Source of the DNA: an uncultured Thiotrichales bacterium
GTDB taxonomy: Bacteria > Pseudomonadota > Gammaproteobacteria > CAIRSR01
Assembly (NCBI GenBank): GCA_903824965.1
Contig: CAIJYR010000088.1
Location: 1 to 34,941, forward strand
Direction: 5' to 3'
DNA: 34,941 nucleotides
The notes under the pieces: generated by a model
The model's input: only the letters and a program-made list of their open reading frames with translations
Databases searched by the model: none
Told to the model about the DNA's origin: nothing
Part shown: in pieces, positions 238 to 34,854 of the stretch
Position numbering within the stretch: position 1 is the first letter of the stretch
Layout: every line of letters starts with the position of its first letter
Program-made: the position numbers and the translations under genes

Positions 238-579
238 CTACTCGTTATAGAGCAGGTCTGCGACCCAGGCACCCAAAACACCCGAAGTAATTACATAGAT
301 ACGGCTTGCCGCTGCTGCTGCGGGGGACACTACCGGTGCAGTGCTCTCCATCCCAATGGTGAGCGGTATCGTTCCAACACCGTAGGTCAACCAGTTGACC
401 GTCACGACACCGGCTAAGGCACCTGCCGCGAGTACCAGGGGGTACACATAGTTTGGTGACTCATGCCCGACGGTCTTCGCGGATTGCGGGGCTTCTGCAG
501 TCAGACTCCAGGCCGAAGCAAACGAGGGTGCAAAACCCAATACAGCAACCAACAACATGATGGCAGATCTGCGCATCAT
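238..579 (-). CDS. Small exported/membrane protein, tandem family copy 1
   Basis: The 113-residue product has a Sec-type signal sequence (MMRR start, hydrophobic run, ASA before the mature part). A glycine/alanine-rich hydrophobic segment follows (GALAGVV…NWLTYGVG), then a Pro/Ala linker, then a second hydrophobic segment ending GAWVADLLY. It is clearly related to the next two genes upstream (637–978 and 1008–1325): all share GAxAG(V/I)V, an aromatic/Gly/Pro stretch, an SR dipeptide and a terminal GA(W/L)(I/V)A(D/N)xxY. A GGAGG Shine–Dalgarno sits 5 bases before ATG 579; the adjacent ATG at 576 is equally possible. I do not recognise the family. It is predicted to be an inner-membrane or periplasmic protein with two membrane segments. 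It is the last gene of the apparent three-gene transcript. Confidence 0.75.
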   Translation of the reverse strand: MMRRSAIMLLVAVLGFAPSFASAWSLTAEAPQSAKTVGHESPNYVYPLVLAAGALAGVVTVNWLTYGVGTIPLTIGMESTAPVVSPAAAAASRIYVITSGVLGAWVADLLYNE

Positions 580-636
580 TTTCTCCTCCGTAAACAGGGA
601 AAGGGACAAGGAAAGAACGACAACACGAACCTGTGC

Positions 637-978
637 TTATTCTCCTGGCCCGTACAAATAATTGGCAATGAGTGCACCCGTACCCGCTACAACGGTCGCC
701 AACACGCGGCTCCCCAAGGCAATGTCCACTGGAGTTGCCTCGAGTGGTGCGGCCACAAACGGAACCGAACCGAGGGGGTAAGTCAACATATTAAAAACCA
801 CAATTCCGACAATAGCACCAGCACCAACCGCCAGCAGCCGATGGGAGGATTTTTCTACCCCTCCCCCGTTGGTCTGTGGAACGGGAGCGGTGGTCTGTGC
901 CGCATAGACGGTCGCTGGGGACAGTACGGGCAGCGCGGTCATCAGGGAAAGCAAAGCAACTAGCATCAATCTCCGCAT
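637..978 (-). CDS. Small exported/membrane protein, tandem family copy 2
   Basis: The 113-residue product starts MRRLML and carries a hydrophobic leader ending near VYAA. A Gln/Pro/Gly-rich spacer is followed by GAGAIVGIVVFNMLTYPLG and by a C-terminal hydrophobic segment GTGALIANYLY. The pattern matches its two neighbours, so this is the middle copy of a tandem array. GAGGAAG lies about 4 bases upstream of ATG 978, a good ribosome site. The copies diverge strongly in the spacers but keep the two hydrophobic blocks, which suggests old duplications with retained function. Function is unknown; oligomerising small membrane or porin-like roles are possible but unsupported. Confidence 0.75.
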   Translation of the reverse strand: MRRLMLVALLSLMTALPVLSPATVYAAQTTAPVPQTNGGGVEKSSHRLLAVGAGAIVGIVVFNMLTYPLGSVPFVAAPLEATPVDIALGSRVLATVVAGTGALIANYLYGPGE

Positions 979-1007
979 GATTCTTCCTCAGAATGGGGCA
1001 AAAGGGC

Positions 1008-1325
1008 CTAGTGATCGTACATCCAGTTGGCAATCCACGCACCAAGCACGGCACTCGTGACAGCGAACATACGGCTCACGCCCACGGAAACCTCTGGCGC
1101 AATCGTAGAAGCTGGCGCAACCGCGCTCTCTAAGAAGGGAAAGCCCGCAGAACGAAAGAGAATGAACTGGGCACCCACGACACCTGCAATGGCACCCAGA
1201 CCGAGTGCATAGGGGTAAAAGGTCTCGGAAAGGGGTGGTGCAGGTTGTTCCTGACCTTTGGAATAACCAGCGACTGGCAAGATACCTATCAAAACGACAA
1301 GGGCAATCAGCAACCGTCTGCGCAT
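1008..1325 (-). CDS. Small exported/membrane protein, tandem family copy 3 (promoter-proximal)
   Basis: The 105-residue product starts MRRRLLIAL with a signal sequence, then a mature part with GLGAIAGVVGAQFILF and a C-terminal block SAVLGAWIANWMYDH. I chose ATG 1325 rather than ATG 1340 because GGAG lies about 7 bases before it. It is the first gene of the three-copy series, and a sigma70-like promoter lies about 80 bases upstream. It belongs to the same unrecognised family as 238–579 and 637–978. Confidence 0.75.
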   Translation of the reverse strand: MRRRLLIALVVLIGILPVAGYSKGQEQPAPPLSETFYPYALGLGAIAGVVGAQFILFRSAGFPFLESAVAPASTIAPEVSVGVSRMFAVTSAVLGAWIANWMYDH

Positions 1326-1408: not shown

Positions 1409-1438
1409 AGTATAGCGGAGGCAAGGGAGCGAGGGCAA
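1409..1438 (-). promoter_or_regulatory. Putative sigma70 promoter of the small membrane protein cluster
   Basis: On the minus strand, TTGCCC (1438–1433) and TATACT (1414–1409) are separated by 18 bases. The -10 box matches the consensus in five of six positions and the -35 in four. The predicted start near 1402 gives a leader of about 77 bases before ATG 1325. Confidence 0.5.
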
Positions 1439-1462: not shown

Positions 1463-2314
1463 TTATAAGAGGACTTGGACATTGTCAATCAGCCGCGTAC
1501 GGCCCAAGCGTACCGCAGCCAACACAACGAGGGGACGATCACCTGGCTGGGGTGTGGTCAAATCGATTGCCCTACGGATGACACAATACTCGGGTTGCAG
1601 ACCAGCGGCCAACAACACGCGAGAACCGCGATCTTCGAGGTGTGTGTAGTCGGTGTTGCCCATGGCGAGATCCGCCTGTATTGCACGCAAGGTACGATAG
1701 AGGACAGGTGCTCTGTACCGTTCTTCTGCGCTGAGGTAGCCGTTGCGCGAACTCATGGCCAGTCCATCGGCTTCGCGCACCGTGGGACAAGTCACGATCT
1801 CGACCGGCATACACAGATCGGCCACCAGGCGTCGCACGACCAAGCATTGTTGAAAATCTTTCTCGCCAAAGAGGGCTAAGTGGGGTTGGACGATGTTGAG
1901 CAACAGGGTTACGACGGTGGCGACGCCATCGAAGTGCAAAGGACGGGTGGCACCGCACAAAAGATCATTCAGACCAGACACGGTGACACGTGTCCTGTTG
2001 GTTTGGGCTTGCCCATGGGGGTAGATTTCTTCGACGGAAGGCACGAAAACCAGATCGGCACCTGCCTCTGTGAGGAGCGCCAGATCTCGTTCTCGTGTGC
2101 GAGGATAGGCCGCATAGTCCTCCGTTGGCCCAAATTGGGTTGGATTCACAAAAAGACTGACCACCACGCGTTTGGCCCGAACACGGGCCTCTTGCACTAG
2201 GGCCAAGTGACCTGCGTGGAGGTTGCCCATGGTGGGCACAAAAGCCAGGGATTGTGTACGCCAAGGCGCAAGCGTATGACGTAGCGCAGCGATGGTTTCT
2301 ATGGTAGTGAGCAT
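1463..2314 (-). CDS. panC: Pantothenate synthetase
   Basis: PanC joins pantoate and beta-alanine with ATP to give pantothenate, the last step of vitamin B5 synthesis, in the cytoplasm. The 283-residue product has the normal family length. It carries the nucleotidyl-transferase HIGH-type motif as HAGH (residues 33–36, in PTMGNLHAGH), the SLFVNPTQF block, the pantoate-binding region around RPLHFDGVATVV, LFGEKDFQQ, and the KMSKS-like loop READGLAMSSRN. ATG 2314 gives the expected N-terminus; no strong Shine–Dalgarno is seen. panB and panD are not next to it. The downstream neighbours are the small membrane genes, with a separate promoter between them. Confidence 0.97.
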   Translation of the reverse strand: MLTTIETIAALRHTLAPWRTQSLAFVPTMGNLHAGHLALVQEARVRAKRVVVSLFVNPTQFGPTEDYAAYPRTRERDLALLTEAGADLVFVPSVEEIYPHGQAQTNRTRVTVSGLNDLLCGATRPLHFDGVATVVTLLLNIVQPHLALFGEKDFQQCLVVRRLVADLCMPVEIVTCPTVREADGLAMSSRNGYLSAEERYRAPVLYRTLRAIQADLAMGNTDYTHLEDRGSRVLLAAGLQPEYCVIRRAIDLTTPQPGDRPLVVLAAVRLGRTRLIDNVQVLL

Positions 2315-2542: not shown

Positions 2543-2609
2543 AAAAATCATGGCTGTTCTCCCCTTAGAGGGGATAATTCGCCATGTACCTATCGAGGGC
2601 TACTCCCGT

Positions 2610-3362
2610 ATGTCTGGATATGGCAATTCCCCCGCAGTAGCGAGTAATTCAGAGCCGACCACCAGCACGGATACCTGTTGTTCTGTGGTCGATCCACCGG
2701 GCATTCCCGAGTATCTGCACAGCACGTACCATTGGGCTTACTTGAGCCGGATTGGCCAGAGGCTGCTCGATCGACCCATTGTGGTTGCCACCATTCTTTG
2801 GGGCAATGATCAGCGCCTCATGAAAGCGGCGGCGGCCGAGTTCAATCCGGGTCAGAAAATACTGCAAGTGGCTTGTGTCTATGGTGATTTCTCGCCGATT
2901 CTTGCACGACAAGTGGGATCGGAGGGGCGGCTCACGGTCATTGATGTGGCACCCATTCAAATCGAGAACTGTCGACGCAAGCTGGTCTCCTACCCTCAAA
3001 CCAAGCTGCGGGTAGCCGATGCTGCCGCGCCGCTTGCGGAGGATGTGGATGGGATCTGTTGTTTTTTCCTGCTCCATGAGGTACCCGAAGAGTACAAGAC
3101 ACGCATTGTAGACAACCTCCTTGGCATGCTTGCACCCGGGGGTAAAATCGTTTTTGTGGACTACCACCGACCCCATGCGCTCCACCCATTAAAGGGAATT
3201 ATGGCGCTGGTTTTTCGTTGGCTAGAACCCTTCGCACGGATCCTCTGGGATCGAGAGATCGTAAGCTACACAAGTCGAGCCAACGAGTTTGACTGGGAAA
3301 AATGTACGTATTTTGGGGGTCTCTATCAAAAAGTGGTGGGTGTACGTCGCCACACACCCTAG
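2610..3362 (+). CDS. rquA: RquA, rhodoquinone biosynthesis methyltransferase-like enzyme
   Basis: RquA converts ubiquinone to rhodoquinone, the low-potential quinone that lets fumarate reductase work anaerobically. The 250-residue product has the family's hallmarks: PEYLHSTYHWAYL near the N-terminus, ILWGN, LQVACVYGDF where ordinary class I methyltransferases have a Gly-rich SAM loop, VIDVAPIQIEN (motif post-I), CCFFLLHEVPEE, and KIVFVDYHRP. The Tyr/Asp-containing loop in place of GxGxG separates RquA from UbiE/UbiG. The gene stands alone between panC and rdgC (convergent, 18 bases apart) with its own promoter. rquA is known to be sporadic and often transferred, which fits this isolated setting. 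ATG 2550 would add 20 residues and be nearly leaderless; I prefer 2610. Confidence 0.9.
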   Translation: MSGYGNSPAVASNSEPTTSTDTCCSVVDPPGIPEYLHSTYHWAYLSRIGQRLLDRPIVVATILWGNDQRLMKAAAAEFNPGQKILQVACVYGDFSPILARQVGSEGRLTVIDVAPIQIENCRRKLVSYPQTKLRVADAAAPLAEDVDGICCFFLLHEVPEEYKTRIVDNLLGMLAPGGKIVFVDYHRPHALHPLKGIMALVFRWLEPFARILWDREIVSYTSRANEFDWEKCTYFGGLYQKVVGVRRHTP

Positions 3363-8336: not shown

Positions 8337-10703
8337 TTAGTGCACCATCGTGTCCTCGTTGGGAACCGTGCCATCTTCTGGTGTACTGGGAATGGCAGGG
8401 ATTGGCGTTGTTTCCGTGTCGCACCCATTTGCGGCGGTTGGAACACTGCCGTGCAAGAACGGTACACGTACCGCTCCTGGGCAATACGATTCAACGGCCC
8501 GATCACGGTGAGACACCCAAGCGTATTCAATGTTCGGCGGTGGGTTTGGTTGTAAGGGACGGGGTTGCAAGGCAACCATCATGTCCATCCAGATCATCAT
8601 GGCACCTGTTGCACCGCTGAAACCCGTTGGTTGATTGTCATCGCGACCGAGCCACACCACCGCCACCCGATCCCCCGAAAATCCCGCAAACCAGGAATCA
8701 CGAAAATCATCGGTGGTACCCGTTTTCCCTGCAAGACCGAGGTTGGGCAATCGCGCCGAGAGTGCGTGTCCCGTACCCGATCGCACGACTTCTTGGAGCG
8801 CATTGGTGAGCAGAAAAACGGCGCCTGGATCGATCGCAGGTTGTACCTCTAGTGGGTAATGCTGTAGGGGAATGCCCTTGGCCGTCAGCACCGCTCGAAT
8901 GGCTCGCAGGGGTGTGCGAAACCCTCCTGCACCGAGTGTCTGGTAGATAGTGGTGATATCTAAGGGAGTCAACTCCGCTGCACCCAGAAACAGCGAGGGA
9001 TATTGGTTCAAAGGCCGATCCGGCCGATCCTGAAACCCAAGCTGGTGCAGAGTCGCAATCATTTCATTCACACCGATCGCAAGCCCAAGATGCACGGTCG
9101 CAAGGTTGTACGAGTGTGCGAGTGCTGTACGCAAGGAGACCATGCCGTGGGCATTGTGATCATAATTTTTGGGTTCCCACGCTCTGCTGCCTGGGATGGG
9201 GACGGAAATGGGGGCGTCATCCAGCGGTGTGAGCAGTGTATAGGGACTGCCGTGGGACAAGGCGGTGAGATACAACACGGGTTTGATGGTCGATCCCACT
9301 TGACGGGATGCGTCCAGTGCCCTGTTGAATCCAGCAAAGCCAGAGATACGCCCCCCTACCACGGCTTGTACCTCGCCATTTTCACGACCTGTGACGATCA
9401 CGGCCCCCTCTAGGGTGCCAGGCGGGAATCTTTTTTGGTGCTCTAGGGTGCGTGCGCGATTGTCGAGGGCGGCATCGGCTGCTTCCTGTACCAAGGGATT
9501 CAGGGTCGTAAAAATCTGTAGCCCTTCTGAGCGCAGATCCTCCTCGTGGTAGTCTCGTGCCAATTGGCGCCGAACCAAATCAAGGAAGGCAGGATAGAGG
9601 GAAGAATTCCGATGCGGACGAGCAATGACTCCCAGGGGAGTGCCTTGGTACTGATGTACCGTTTCTGCGGCCATGCCTCCGGTGTCGATGAGTTGTCCGA
9701 GTACCACGTTGCGACGTTCGGTAGCACGATCCGGGTGTTTGCGTGGATCGTAATAAGAAGCACCCCGCGCCAATCCGACCAACAGCGCGAGTTGTGGTGG
9801 TTCCAACTCTTCGAGGGGACGGCCAAAGTAGAACCAACTCGCCAAACCAAAGCCATGGATGGCCCGATCGCCATCTTGTCCTAAATAAATCTCGTTGAGG
9901 TAGGCTTCTAAGATTTCGTCCTTGCTGTAGTGGATCTCCAAGTCCAAGGCCATCACTGCTTCTTTGACTTTGCGTGCAAGGCTGCGTTCTTTTTGGAGGT
10001 AGAAATTCTTGACGAGCTGCTGGGTCAGCGTGGATCCGCCTTGCACTGTGGTACCGGCGCGAAGATTGGAAACAAAGGCCCGCACCACCGCGACTGGATC
10101 AATCCCGTGGTGTTCGTAAAAGTGGCGATCCTCAGTCGAAACCAGCAATTTGGTGAGCAGCGGTGGCACCTCGGAGAGTTTTACGAGGATGCGATCTTCT
10201 GCTTTGGTGGGGTGAATGCTCCCAATGACCAAGGGGTCGAAGCGTACCACCCCCGCCGAAGTGCCACTCGCCGAATCGAGGAGCGTCTGAATGCTGTTGC
10301 CAGCAAAAGTGACTCGCACCAAGCGGGACGGTTCATCACCATCCCAAAAGGTGAAGGGCCGCGTCACCACACGTACCTCGTTGCCCAGCAAGGCATAAGT
10401 GCCAGGCTCTGTTGGGTCTTTCACAGCGCGGTAGCCAAGCGAGGTCAGTTCGCCTTGCAACTGTGCGGGTTTGAGATCCAGTCCTTGGTACAGTTCCAAC
10501 GGACGGGCATAGACGCGGGCGGGCAGCTCCCAGCGTTTTCCATCGAACTGTTCACGTACCTGGTGATCCAGCAGCAGGATGCGGCCTGATGCCAGGAAAG
10601 CCAAGCCGATGAGCCCCCCCAGCACCAGACGGAGAAGCACGTATCGAACACGGGAACGGGGCGGTTTGGGCGTCTTCGCACCAAAAAATCGGGAAACAGG
10701 CAT
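8337..10703 (-). CDS. mrcB: Penicillin-binding protein 1B
   Basis: This is a bifunctional class A PBP that polymerises and crosslinks peptidoglycan at the outer face of the inner membrane. The 788-residue product has a basic cytoplasmic tail, one membrane anchor (about residues 22–46), a UB2H-like region (about 60–150), and a GT51 transglycosylase with EDRHFYEHHGIDP (Glu near 190) and GGSTLTQQLVKNFYL. The transpeptidase has the active-site STIK (near 470), SYN and KTGTT (near 660). A short Pro/Thr-rich tail ends the protein. It lies 54 bases downstream of the LeuA/CimA-type gene and upstream of the TPR lipoprotein. The UB2H domain is the docking site for LpoB in Escherichia coli; here the neighbour suggests an LpoP-type activator instead. 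Confidence 0.95.
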   Translation of the reverse strand: MPVSRFFGAKTPKPPRSRVRYVLLRLVLGGLIGLAFLASGRILLLDHQVREQFDGKRWELPARVYARPLELYQGLDLKPAQLQGELTSLGYRAVKDPTEPGTYALLGNEVRVVTRPFTFWDGDEPSRLVRVTFAGNSIQTLLDSASGTSAGVVRFDPLVIGSIHPTKAEDRILVKLSEVPPLLTKLLVSTEDRHFYEHHGIDPVAVVRAFVSNLRAGTTVQGGSTLTQQLVKNFYLQKERSLARKVKEAVMALDLEIHYSKDEILEAYLNEIYLGQDGDRAIHGFGLASWFYFGRPLEELEPPQLALLVGLARGASYYDPRKHPDRATERRNVVLGQLIDTGGMAAETVHQYQGTPLGVIARPHRNSSLYPAFLDLVRRQLARDYHEEDLRSEGLQIFTTLNPLVQEAADAALDNRARTLEHQKRFPPGTLEGAVIVTGRENGEVQAVVGGRISGFAGFNRALDASRQVGSTIKPVLYLTALSHGSPYTLLTPLDDAPISVPIPGSRAWEPKNYDHNAHGMVSLRTALAHSYNLATVHLGLAIGVNEMIATLHQLGFQDRPDRPLNQYPSLFLGAAELTPLDITTIYQTLGAGGFRTPLRAIRAVLTAKGIPLQHYPLEVQPAIDPGAVFLLTNALQEVVRSGTGHALSARLPNLGLAGKTGTTDDFRDSWFAGFSGDRVAVVWLGRDDNQPTGFSGATGAMMIWMDMMVALQPRPLQPNPPPNIEYAWVSHRDRAVESYCPGAVRVPFLHGSVPTAANGCDTETTPIPAIPSTPEDGTVPNEDTMVH

Positions 10704-22911: not shown

Positions 22912-22951
22912 CGGTCATCCTACTGTCATGTGTTTGTCACACAGCCTTCAT
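22912..22951 (+). promoter_or_regulatory. PHO box: PhoB binding site with three to four 11-bp-spaced half-sites
   Basis: CGGTCAT (22912–22918), CTGTCAT (22923–22929) and TTGTCAC (22934–22940) are 7-mers each followed by 4 bases, the exact geometry of the PhoB site (consensus CTGTCAT, 11-bp repeat). A weaker fourth, CCTTCAT, follows in phase at 22945–22951. The site lies about 100 bases before ATG 23048 of the phosphate-binding protein. It also shows that the upstream in-frame ATG 22928, inside the site, is not the start. Confidence 0.85.
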
Positions 22952-23047
22952 CCACGGACATCATTCTATCTCGCAGGCTGCGCGGTTGGGGAACCAACTG
23001 GTCGCCCCGTGAATGCCCCTTTTTCGAGACAATCGAGACAACCCATA

Positions 23048-24016
23048 ATGATGAACGTCAAATCCCTGTGCTGTATGGCCGGATGCACCCTAGCGATGTC
23101 AGGATCCGCGATCGCTGTGGGTGTGGATGCCGCACTGCCCACTTATATAGTTGCGTCCGGTGTATCGGGCAACATTTCCAGCGTAGGATCGGACACCCTC
23201 GCAAACCTTATGACCATGTGGGCCGAGGCGTACAAACACAATTATCCCAACGTGAACATTCAGATCCAAGCCGCTGGCTCCTCTACGGCCCCCCCTGCCC
23301 TGACCGAAGGCACCTCCAATTTTGGGCCGATGAGTCGCGCCATGAAAGACAAGGAACTCGAAGCCTTCGAGAAAAAGTATGGTTATAAGCCAACGCCCAT
23401 TCGTGTCGCGATTGATGCGCTCGCTGTCTTCGTCAACAAAGACAATCCGCTGAAGAGCATGACGATCCCGCAGGTCGATGCAACCTTCTCAGCCACCCGC
23501 AAGTGCGGTGCTCCTGAGGATGTTACTCACTGGGGTCAGCTCGGTCTTACAGGCCCTTGGGTCACTCGTGACGTTCAGATGTTCGGACGCAACTCGGTTT
23601 CTGGTACCTATGGGTACTTCAAAGAACATGCGTTGTGTTCAGGTGACTTTAAGAACAGCGTGAACGAGCAACCTGGATCGGCTTCTGTGGTGCAGGGCGT
23701 AACTGCGTCCGTCAATGCCATCGGGTATTCTGGGATTGGCTATGTCACTTCTAGCGTGAAAGCCTTACCGATTGCCCGCAAGGATGGGGATGTCCCCGTG
23801 GCAGCCACTCCGGAGAACGCCATCAACGGCACCTATCCGTTGTCGCGTTTCCTGTACATTTACATCAACAAAAGCCCCAACCAACCCGTCCCCCCCCTTG
23901 AGCGGGAATTCCTCAAGATGGTCATCTCCAAGAGCGGTCAAGAGGTTGTGCTGAAAGAAGGCTTCGTACCCATACCGCCTGCCATTGCGACCAAAGAGTT
24001 GGCCAAGCTACAGTAA
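23048..24016 (+). CDS. PstS-type phosphate ABC transporter substrate-binding protein
   Basis: This is the periplasmic phosphate-capturing protein of a Pst-like importer. The 322-residue product has a signal sequence (about 1–25). Ligand-loop segments [10 protein letters not shown] near the N-terminus and [23 protein letters not shown] are typical of PBP-like domain 2 phosphate binders. [18 protein letters not shown] is the third phosphate-contact loop. pstC, pstA and pstB are not adjacent, so the gene is a lone binding protein. The PHO box upstream shows control by phosphate starvation through PhoB. ATG 23048 or the next ATG 23051 is the start; no strong Shine–Dalgarno. Confidence 0.93.
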
Positions 24017-32016: not shown

Positions 32017-32811
32017 TTATTCTTCCAGCAATGGCCAGGGATGGAGTAAGTCCGTAAAGCCGTTCTGATCCAAAATATGCCCCCATGCTGAATCTTGTTG
32101 TAGGGCGGCCAGATGGTGATTGAAACTTGCAATGTCTTCTTGAGAGAACATTTGCTTCGATAGTACAGTAGATATAGGAGCAATACCCACAGCTCGTTCT
32201 AAAATATCAATCTGATCCATAATGCCTTCTGCACGAAAATCATAAATATCAGACAAACTAGAAATAATCGCAGCATCTACCTGTCCTAAGATGAGAGAGC
32301 GTAGAATGTCGCCTTTTGATTCGAATCGTTGCAGCGTGATCTTGTCCGCCTTTCTGCACTTTTCTGGCAGTCGATACGGATTGCTGGCACGAATGCCTAT
32401 CACCTTGCCATTCAGATCGGATATTTTATTGAATGGAACTTTCTCTCCCTTTCTTATGATAACAATATTGTATTCGATAATGATTGGGTCAGTGATCAAG
32501 CCTACATCTAGTGCTTCTGTCGTACGGTATAGAGCCGCGACAACGCCAAGTTTCCCATCCTTAAGAAATCGAATAGCATCTCTGGAACGCATATTAATGA
32601 AATGATGTTCGCAACCCATACGATTCAAGACTTCATCAAGCGTCTCAGCAACGATACCTGTCGGCACTCCCCATTCGGTTCTGCCATAGAGATTAATCGG
32701 AAGTGCAACCAACTTTTTGCGATCGGGCGATACGCAAGTCTCCTGTGCGAAACCATGAAACGTGATTGAGAATAACAGCAGCATTGTCAAAGAACGAACG
32801 AATTGGTTCAT
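32017..32811 (-). CDS. Periplasmic solute-binding protein, SBP_bac_3 type
   Basis: The 264-residue product has a signal peptide (about 1–22, ending GFAQ) and the two-lobe fold of amino-acid-type binding proteins: GIVAETLDEVLNRMG, MRSRDAIRFLKDGKLGVVAAL, the hinge region ISDLNGKVIGIRASNPYRLP, and LILGQVDAAIISSLSDI. Two Cys (CVSPDRKK and CEHH) are near the N-terminus. No permease or ATPase genes are close. Its ATG overlaps the stop of the pentapeptide-repeat gene (ATGA), so it is translated from the same mRNA. With such partners it may be a sensor or accessory protein rather than a transporter part. Confidence 0.85.
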   Translation of the reverse strand: MNQFVRSLTMLLLFSITFHGFAQETCVSPDRKKLVALPINLYGRTEWGVPTGIVAETLDEVLNRMGCEHHFINMRSRDAIRFLKDGKLGVVAALYRTTEALDVGLITDPIIIEYNIVIIRKGEKVPFNKISDLNGKVIGIRASNPYRLPEKCRKADKITLQRFESKGDILRSLILGQVDAAIISSLSDIYDFRAEGIMDQIDILERAVGIAPISTVLSKQMFSQEDIASFNHHLAALQQDSAWGHILDQNGFTDLLHPWPLLEE

Positions 32812-33824
32812 AGCACTGTTCCATTACGCATTATAGAATCAGTACCCTTCTGATCGTCACGATAAAGACCTGGCTTTATCGGAAGCGTTGAAGGCGGGTT
32901 AGGAATCGGATTTGCGGGTATAGTAGCATTGGGTGTTTGTAGCGAGTCCTCTGGTTTTTGGCAAACGCCAATACTGCCGTCTGACATAATCGTACCACAT
33001 AGATTGGCATCGCGTAGGATCACATTCGTCATTCGCGCACCACTGAAGTTGGCCTGACGTAGGTCGGCCCCCTGTAAGTTAACAACATCAAGTGTGGCAC
33101 CACGAAAATCGGCCATGCGCAGATCGGCGCTGCGGAAATTCGTATGGCTGATTGTGGCAGCGTTGAACGATGCACCTTCTAGTATAGTTCCGATAAAAAT
33201 AGATCCCTCAAGACTAGAATCTCGCAAGATCGCATGAGTCATCACTGCATTTTGTAAATCTGTACTGCCCATCGTAACACCGATCAGTTTTGTGCCACGC
33301 AGGTTGGCATTGCGTAGATTGGCGTTGCTGAGATCGGAGGCAGAGAGTTCGGCATTTTCCAGCACGGCAGTTGAGAGATCTGCATGACGTAAATCACTGT
33401 TAGACAAATTGGCACGAGACAGATTGGCCATTTGCATATTGGTATGACGGAGTACCGATCGGAACATACTCGCGTCTTCAAGATAGGCATTTCTAAGATT
33501 TGATCCTTCTAAGGAAGACCATTCCATGCGCGTGAAGTCCAAGGTAGTATCACTTAGATTAACAGAATCTAGAACTGACCACGATAGATTAGCACCGAAT
33601 AAATACGAACCAGAGTAATCGCCTCCAGTTAAATCAAGCTTTGACAGATCAGCGTACCGTAAATCACACATCTGGCAGGATGTGTGGGAGATGACCCTGT
33701 CACGGTATAATTCGGATGGTCGTGTTTCACTCGCACAAGAGCACAGACAGACTGCCAGGATAGCGAACATCGTCGCATAATTTTTATTCAGATCCCTGGT
33801 TAGACAATGGATGACGCTGGTCAT
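32808..33824 (-). CDS. Pentapeptide-repeat lipoprotein
   Basis: The 338-residue product begins with a charged n-region, a hydrophobic run and a lipobox-like LCSC (Cys 30). About 45 pentapeptide units of A(D/N)LXX type follow (LSRANLSNSDLRHADL; NLQGADLRQANF), which fold as a right-handed four-sided beta-helix. A Pro-rich tail (IPANPIPNPPSTLP) ends it. Such proteins can act as scaffolds or mimic DNA; the export signal argues for an envelope role. ATG 33824 starts 10 bases after the secretin stop, and the stop overlaps the next gene's ATG, so the three are one operon. Confidence 0.85.
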   Translation of the reverse strand: MTSVIHCLTRDLNKNYATMFAILAVCLCSCASETRPSELYRDRVISHTSCQMCDLRYADLSKLDLTGGDYSGSYLFGANLSWSVLDSVNLSDTTLDFTRMEWSSLEGSNLRNAYLEDASMFRSVLRHTNMQMANLSRANLSNSDLRHADLSTAVLENAELSASDLSNANLRNANLRGTKLIGVTMGSTDLQNAVMTHAILRDSSLEGSIFIGTILEGASFNAATISHTNFRSADLRMADFRGATLDVVNLQGADLRQANFSGARMTNVILRDANLCGTIMSDGSIGVCQKPEDSLQTPNATIPANPIPNPPSTLPIKPGLYRDDQKGTDSIMRNGTVL

Positions 33825-33834
33825 AGAGACATTC

Positions 33835-34854
33835 TCAGTAATACAAGAAATCTTTAATTTGCAGTAGGCGATCATGCAAGGTACGCACATTTGACCATGT
33901 CTCAAGATCGACATCGCCGGTACGGAATTCTCGGTAGATGCCACTCTCTTGCAAGTGATGAAACACGGATGCACAATTCGGGTATGGTTTGAACCAATCC
34001 GCATAACGAGATCGAAGGGCAGACAAGGGACGCTCATCTTCCGATAACGTCTTTTCGTATTCTTTGCGTGCCTGATCAGGCTGATATACGTATTGGGCTG
34101 GTCGTGGTGTAATCAATATCAAGACCGATTTTTGGTAATCAGTCGTTTCTACGCGCGAAAATAAATATTGAAGAAAAGGAATATCTGCCAACACAGGCGT
34201 AGCGTTTCTGGTTCTCTGACCCTCTTTCTCTGAAAGACCTCCCAAAATCAGTGTCTCACCAAAACGCATAATGACATTTGCATCGATCTTATTCTTGCTG
34301 GTTGCGAGCTTGAGGCTAAAAGATACATCTCCACTCGGCGGTTCAATGAAGGTACGCTCCGCCGATACCGCCATTCGTAAGCGTCCGTCTTCTAGAAAAG
34401 TCGGAAGAACCGATAAGGTCACTCCAATTTGCTTCTCAATCCTGATCGATTCACCACCTACTGATCCCGATGAAACAGCAGCTGCATTAAGCTCTGTTCC
34501 GGAAAAAAACTGTGATGCCTGCCCAGCGAGCGCAATCAACGTTGGTCGCGCCAATATCTCGTCGCGTGATACCTGAGAATTGACAATATTGAGTGTATAG
34601 TTAATGGCTGGGACAGTAATCAATCGCGTAATTGTGGAAGTTGTGCCCTCTGGTTGTGTATTCGTAGCCCCATTGACCATGGTCTTGGTGTAGCTGTAGC
34701 CTGGCATGGTGGCACCACCGGGCACATTGTTCCCAAACTGTAGGTTGAGACCGTTCAGCAAATTGATCCCTTTGGCGGTGCCTGCAGTCTGCTCCGTATG
34801 AAACCCAAGTTGCCACCTATGACCACCATCAGAATCCTTCCAAGAGGTAATGGA
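33835..34854 (-). CDS. Secretin family outer-membrane channel, C-terminal domain (5' end broken or truncated)
   Basis: Secretins form the outer-membrane ring of type II/III secretion systems and type IV pili. The segment has the beta-barrel core: SRDEILARPTLIALAGQ, IGVTLSVLPTFLEDGRLRMAVSA, MRFGETLILGGLSEKEGQR, TPVLADIPFLQYLFS, VLILITPRPAQ. A C-terminal extension of about 80 residues follows. The usual N-domains are absent. An in-frame TAA at 34857–34855 closes the frame upstream; codons from 34854 to 34762 still read protein-like (WQLGFHTEQTAGTAKG) but hold no ATG; the first candidate start is TTG 34761. The gene is therefore either a pseudogene with a nonsense mutation or a truncated copy. 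The extra 84 bases to the window edge do not settle it. Confidence 0.75.
   Translation of the reverse strand, partial: SITSWKDSDGGHRWQLGFHTEQTAGTAKGINLLNGLNLQFGNNVPGGATMPGYSYTKTMVNGATNTQPEGTTSTITRLITVPAINYTLNIVNSQVSRDEILARPTLIALAGQASQFFSGTELNAAAVSSGSVGGESIRIEKQIGVTLSVLPTFLEDGRLRMAVSAERTFIEPPSGDVSFSLKLATSKNKIDANVIMRFGETLILGGLSEKEGQRTRNATPVLADIPFLQYLFSRVETTDYQKSVLILITPRPAQYVYQPDQARKEYEKTLSEDERPLSALRSRYADWFKPYPNCASVFHHLQESGIYREFRTGDVDLETWSNVRTLHDRLLQIKDFLYY

Follow-up and report, generated by a model that had tools for sequence, protein, structure and literature searches.

What do three small adjacent genes make, when they resemble one another and match no known family? The question is raised by the 34,941-nucleotide contig CAIJYR010000088.1 of an uncultured Thiotrichales bacterium (here referred to as the window), in which a minus-strand cluster encodes, in order, A (1008..1325, 105 amino acids), B (637..978, 113 amino acids, with a short inter-helix loop) and C (238..576, 112 amino acids), each predicted to be an exported two-helix hairpin protein. 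Comparative analysis suggests that A, B and C probably join in an obligate hetero-oligomer of 1:1:1 stoichiometry, whose six helices would make up one inner-membrane unit, likely a small pore or scaffold.

The three open reading frames (ORFs) lie where the initial annotation had placed them, and its description of a signal sequence plus two hydrophobic blocks was borne out: each protein starts with MRR and continues with a Sec-type hydrophobic stretch, a variable spacer and two more hydrophobic segments (Kyte-Doolittle 1.65-2.2 and 1.3-1.7). Preferred starts are the ATG codons at 1325 (A), 978 (B) and 576 (C). A longer A starting at ATG 1340 is unlikely, because the only block conserved upstream of A in four genomes is that of the ribosome-binding site and start, GGAGA-ATCTATGCGCA. 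That the genes are a triplicated family was confirmed by searches within their own genome (A vs C, E 4.7e-10; B vs C, 1.6e-6; A vs B, 2e-3), with a core identity among the paralogs of ~30%. Helix 1 is Gly/Ala-rich, carries the motif GAxxGxV and is followed by a proline-containing loop; helix 2 starts with Ser-Arg, contains GAxxA and ends in an aromatic residue (SR...GAxxA...Y/W). The features that define the family, a GAxxG-type helix 1, the Ser-Arg start of helix 2 and its small-residue face, were all found. An AlphaFold model of A places a signal helix at residues 2-19 and further helices at 37-57 and 77-104, with a predicted local distance difference test score (pLDDT) of 63.5. A is 74-85% identical to its orthologs in three relatives, and ratios of nonsynonymous to synonymous substitution rates (dN/dS) of 0.07-0.39 between orthologs reveal purifying selection on all three, indicating that A, B and C are real genes. 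The cluster recurs, with order and orientation unchanged, in all four genomes surveyed of the lineage (family f1).

Strong, independent support for one hetero-oligomer came from a different class. A profile search with A-C and a fourth paralog, D (described below), against 240 genomes recovered a single genome with three matches in the same frame (3.7e-13, 5.6e-10 and 1.2e-8). They belong to one gene of Stella sp. ATCC 35155 (C1:710226-711140), which encodes 305 amino acids with a single signal peptide and three hairpin domains. Stella is a genus of star-shaped Alphaproteobacteria. The fused gene is present in 4/4 genomes of the genus and in 0/39 other genomes of the order, and D was not found in Stella besides the fused gene itself. 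Two of the three complete strains, Stella sp. ATCC 35155 and S. humosa, carry it as one intact ORF. S. vacuolata has the three domains in order, with the N-terminal part read in a different frame, and a fourth member, known from a draft genome (G962), has the gene divided between frames; these frame breaks lie at L106 ~8830-8955 and L107 ~8777-9576. The chromosomes assigned to Stella sp. ATCC 35155, S. humosa and S. vacuolata comprise 5,339,096, 5,832,650 and 5,834,761 bases, respectively, exactly as published for these strains (PMC6687932). Ser-Arg opens helix 2 in 12/12 A-C proteins of the lineage and in 9/9 Stella domains. An AlphaFold model of the fused protein was all-helical; at a pLDDT of 39 it is unusable beyond showing helices, having been folded from three alignment rows only, since aligning the fused protein together with the single ones produced a split across the domains.

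The order of the domains was compared with that of the genes in three ways. Subfamily hidden Markov models (HMMs) paired A with domain 1 (33.6-36.1 bits), B with domain 2 (47.5-48.4) and C with domain 3 (44.4-45.5), and the order A-B-C summed to 127.5-128.5 bits in the three strains vs 91.8-93.1 for the next best of the six possible orders. Mean identities were 0.38 (A/1), 0.42 (B/2) and 0.44 (C/3), with 0.24-0.34 for the other pairings. In a phylogenetic tree B formed a clade with Stella domain 2 (support 97/97), as did C with domain 3 (80/94). Judged by sequence, Stella domains 1-2-3 match A-B-C in order, and by this agreement of HMMs and identities, and of the tree for B and C, the three subfamilies seem older than the split of the two lineages' versions, or seem to have moved as a set.

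Around the cluster the gene neighbourhood changes. A gene for pantoate-beta-alanine ligase, panC (1463..2314, minus strand; Pfam PF02569, E 7.8e-102), lies upstream in three of the four lineage genomes, and the contig of the fourth ends at that spot. On the distal side are aspS and a DedA-like gene in G001, biotin-type genes in G003 and sialic-acid-synthase-type genes in G002, names that come from reading the ORFs and not from a family scan. With the cluster constant and its distal neighbours variable, the A-B-C set therefore persists as a unit amid changing surroundings. No flanking gene is its constant functional partner, and panC is metabolic, with no evident link. No further genome gave a credible match among 369 searched in the class and 398 searched in the phylum. 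The survey was a sample (~2,000 genome searches including overlap, with a capped number of candidates per genome), and the contig sweep of all genomes used A alone as query, which distant relatives would escape; absence from genomes outside the known carriers is thus to be read as 'rare' and not 'absent'. A phage or plasmid origin was rejected, as viral contigs and plasmids yielded no relative. Weak matches in other genomes (E 3e-4 to 1e-2) proved, where translated, to be short bits of unrelated or wrong-frame ORFs; later ones were assessed solely from their scores and incomplete coverage, and all were left out of the count. A match on contig C252 interrupted by stops lay on the strand opposite to a longer ORF and was rejected.

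Proteins encoded by separate genes in one organism and by a fused gene in another are classically taken to interact. With the strict 1:1:1 retention of A, B and C added, the Stella fusion points to an obligate hetero-oligomer as the leading explanation. A, B and C would be three diverged copies of one hairpin domain, each subunit exported via its own signal sequence, and the resulting six-helix unit would have its anchor in the cytoplasmic membrane, where several such units may line up in a larger ring or sheet. The Gly/Ala-rich helices may pack by their small-residue faces, both within a hairpin and with the subunit next to it. Presumably the three copies are not interchangeable, because each retains its own subfamily sequence across the distance between Gamma- and Alphaproteobacteria. 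Physical assembly, inner-membrane location, topology and a role as pore or scaffold are what we infer, a small pore or structural membrane scaffold being the most likely nature of the unit. The proposal of the initial annotation that the proteins are subunits of one hetero-oligomeric membrane structure is supported by the cluster's recurrence in all four genomes, the ordered fusion and the lack of a match to a known family.

Several observations weigh against an inner-membrane hetero-oligomer with this domain correspondence. AlphaFold confidence was low to moderate for A (63.5) and lower for the fused protein (39). The hydrophobicity of helix 2 is only moderate, making a peripheral or outer-membrane site possible, and charges flanking the helices give no clear topology. 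The grouping of A with Stella domain 1 falls outside the best tree, although it was not rejected (approximately unbiased test, p-AU 0.43), and the runner-up domain order pairs A with domain 3 and C with domain 1. Finally, a gene fusion supports physical interaction without proving it.

More specific readings differ in what the complex would do. It is possible, if rather doubtful, that it is a conducting inner-membrane pore or transporter channel for ions or small solutes, with D belonging to the own assembly of a PstS-like operon. Six helices per unit, their Gly/Ala-rich composition and the conserved Ser-Arg that opens helix 2 throughout A, B, C and the Stella domains would suit a pore, as would the setting of D. 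This paralog occurs once per lineage genome, unlinked to A-B-C (C192:1895-2326 in the genome of the window), and is homologous by hhalign (probability 93.6%, E 2e-7). It has a signal sequence and the same two helices as A-C, but differs in its longer loop, conserved C-terminal tail and a Gln replacing the Arg at helix 2. In 4/4 lineage genomes (L086:5101-9003, L085:1892-5346, L087:8593-11866 and L088:228-4620) D stands in a conserved operon beside genes for a PstS-like (PBP_like_2) binding protein, a conserved exported protein of ~233 amino acids and a single-helix coiled-coil membrane protein, and in the genome of the window a porin-like gene adjoins this operon. However, no polar or charged residue is conserved within the helices, A-B-C lacks a constantly linked gene for a permease or an ATPase, and D carries Gln, not Arg.

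Some further observations concern the D operon and genes like it. Its Pfam scan covered the genes of G001 only, those of the other genomes being recognised by reading. DUF6524-type genes (PF20134) lie near it, and a literature search found no paper on DUF6524. The 233-residue exported protein was found in 0/397 other phylum genomes searched. A second pair of a PstS-like protein and an exported protein of 239 amino acids is encoded at L091:8173-11618 (C22:20172-23617 in the genome of the window), preceded by three small exported Gly-rich proteins (109, ~133 and 182 amino acids) built like A-C; two of these were compared with A-D and are not detectable homologs (hhalign probability <1%). The window itself encodes a PstS-family phosphate-binding protein (22928-24016, plus strand; TIGR02136, 265 bits), with a protein of 965 amino acids downstream that has no NCBIfam match.

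Somewhat less probable than a conducting pore is a structural membrane scaffold or array, an element of curvature, layer or appendage that would tile the envelope without transport, for which the presence in Stella would be a hint. Helix faces rich in small residues fit tightly packed arrays, and carriers were found only in a small gammaproteobacterial lineage and in a genus of extreme cell shape (PMC6687932). Two carriers nevertheless make no correlation, and the gene context in Stella includes no linked shape gene; among the papers listed by a literature search, none dealt with a shape gene of the genus. Mechanisms behind complex morphology are still unknown (PMC6687932), and the fused gene is a named candidate in Stella, where no mechanism yet accounts for the star shape. 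The link of the fused gene to the star shape is only a hint, for now a coincidence of one genus. We regard as unlikely, though less so than the two alternatives below, the broader proposal that A, B and C build a new kind of heteromeric structure in the envelope, either a pore or a scaffold that tiles it, tied to an unusual envelope architecture in both the lineage and Stella.

That tandem duplication within the lineage simply left redundant members, which form no complex, is improbable: tandem paralogs often arise in this way and a fourth copy, D, does lie elsewhere, but the subfamilies are distinct, occur 1:1:1 in every lineage genome and would have separated before the split from their Stella homologs, and the ordered fusion largely refutes it. 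A secreted multi-peptide set of bacteriocin or toxin type, to which small, exported, clustered products with GxxxG-like motifs might point, is highly implausible: the signal is of Sec type and not a double-glycine leader, no gene for immunity or dedicated export adjoins the cluster in every genome, a fused form exists and no family matches. As a probable 1:1:1 hetero-oligomer, three 'hypothetical proteins' become a single unit that can be tested. Complete genomes are available for Stella, a cultured genus, and its whole putative assembly is encoded by one gene, which would allow direct knock-out, tagging and structural work.

How the cluster is transcribed is less clear, and here the initial annotation, which had proposed a shared promoter, fared less well. 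The single candidate upstream of A is a weak sigma70-like site (1409..1438, minus strand; TTGCCC-18-TATACT, 9/12), and it showed no conservation in relatives in a four-genome comparison. Two sigma70-like sites were seen around the cluster vs 0.7 +/- 1.0 by chance. Moreover, the B-C gap of ~60-158 nucleotides across lineage genomes leaves room for a separate promoter. A promoter shared by A, B and C is only a possibility.

Other genes in the vicinity are recorded here in their own right. Between panC and the hairpin cluster of G001, a caspase-like plus formylglycine-generating-enzyme-type protein is encoded (L009:2576-4720), which is not the case in the window. In the window and in relatives, panC adjoins rquA (2550-3362, plus strand), encoding the rhodoquinone biosynthesis methyltransferase RquA (NF038261, 302 bits vs a cut-off of 175), which makes it probable that rhodoquinone serves anaerobic fumarate respiration in this lineage. 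A pentapeptide-repeat protein of 409 amino acids is encoded at 32808-34037 (minus strand).

In comparisons with known families, the initial annotation's failure to recognise one held up. A, B and C had nothing near cut-off in Pfam, NCBIfam or PHROGs, the best hit of a sequence search of the PDB had an E of 0.47, and Foldseek against the PDB, a weak test given the pLDDT of the A model, gave a best E of 3.9. Glycine-zipper and other small families with two transmembrane (2TM) helices (PF05433 Rick_17kDa_Anti, PF04226 Transgly_assoc) resemble A-C in being small, exported or membrane-bound and in having Gly-rich helices, but no A-C member scored above the Pfam cut-off, the best Transgly_assoc match reaching E 0.067 in 1/12. 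The c-type rings of ATP synthases are likewise built of two-helix Gly-rich hairpins and can be hetero-oligomeric (V-ATPase c, c' and c''). Unlike ATP synthase subunit c, the A-C and Stella alignments have no mid-helix acidic residue, and there was no sequence match or significant structural match. Among the closest counterparts is the undescribed Stella fused protein, which shares with A-C the hairpin domain in three copies, the A-B-C order and, in its case once, the signal peptide, and differs in being one polypeptide instead of three, with 38-44% identity per domain. By these comparisons the A-B-C family is absent from the libraries searched, whereas the heteromeric assembly of small membrane hairpins that it is predicted to form is of a known kind.
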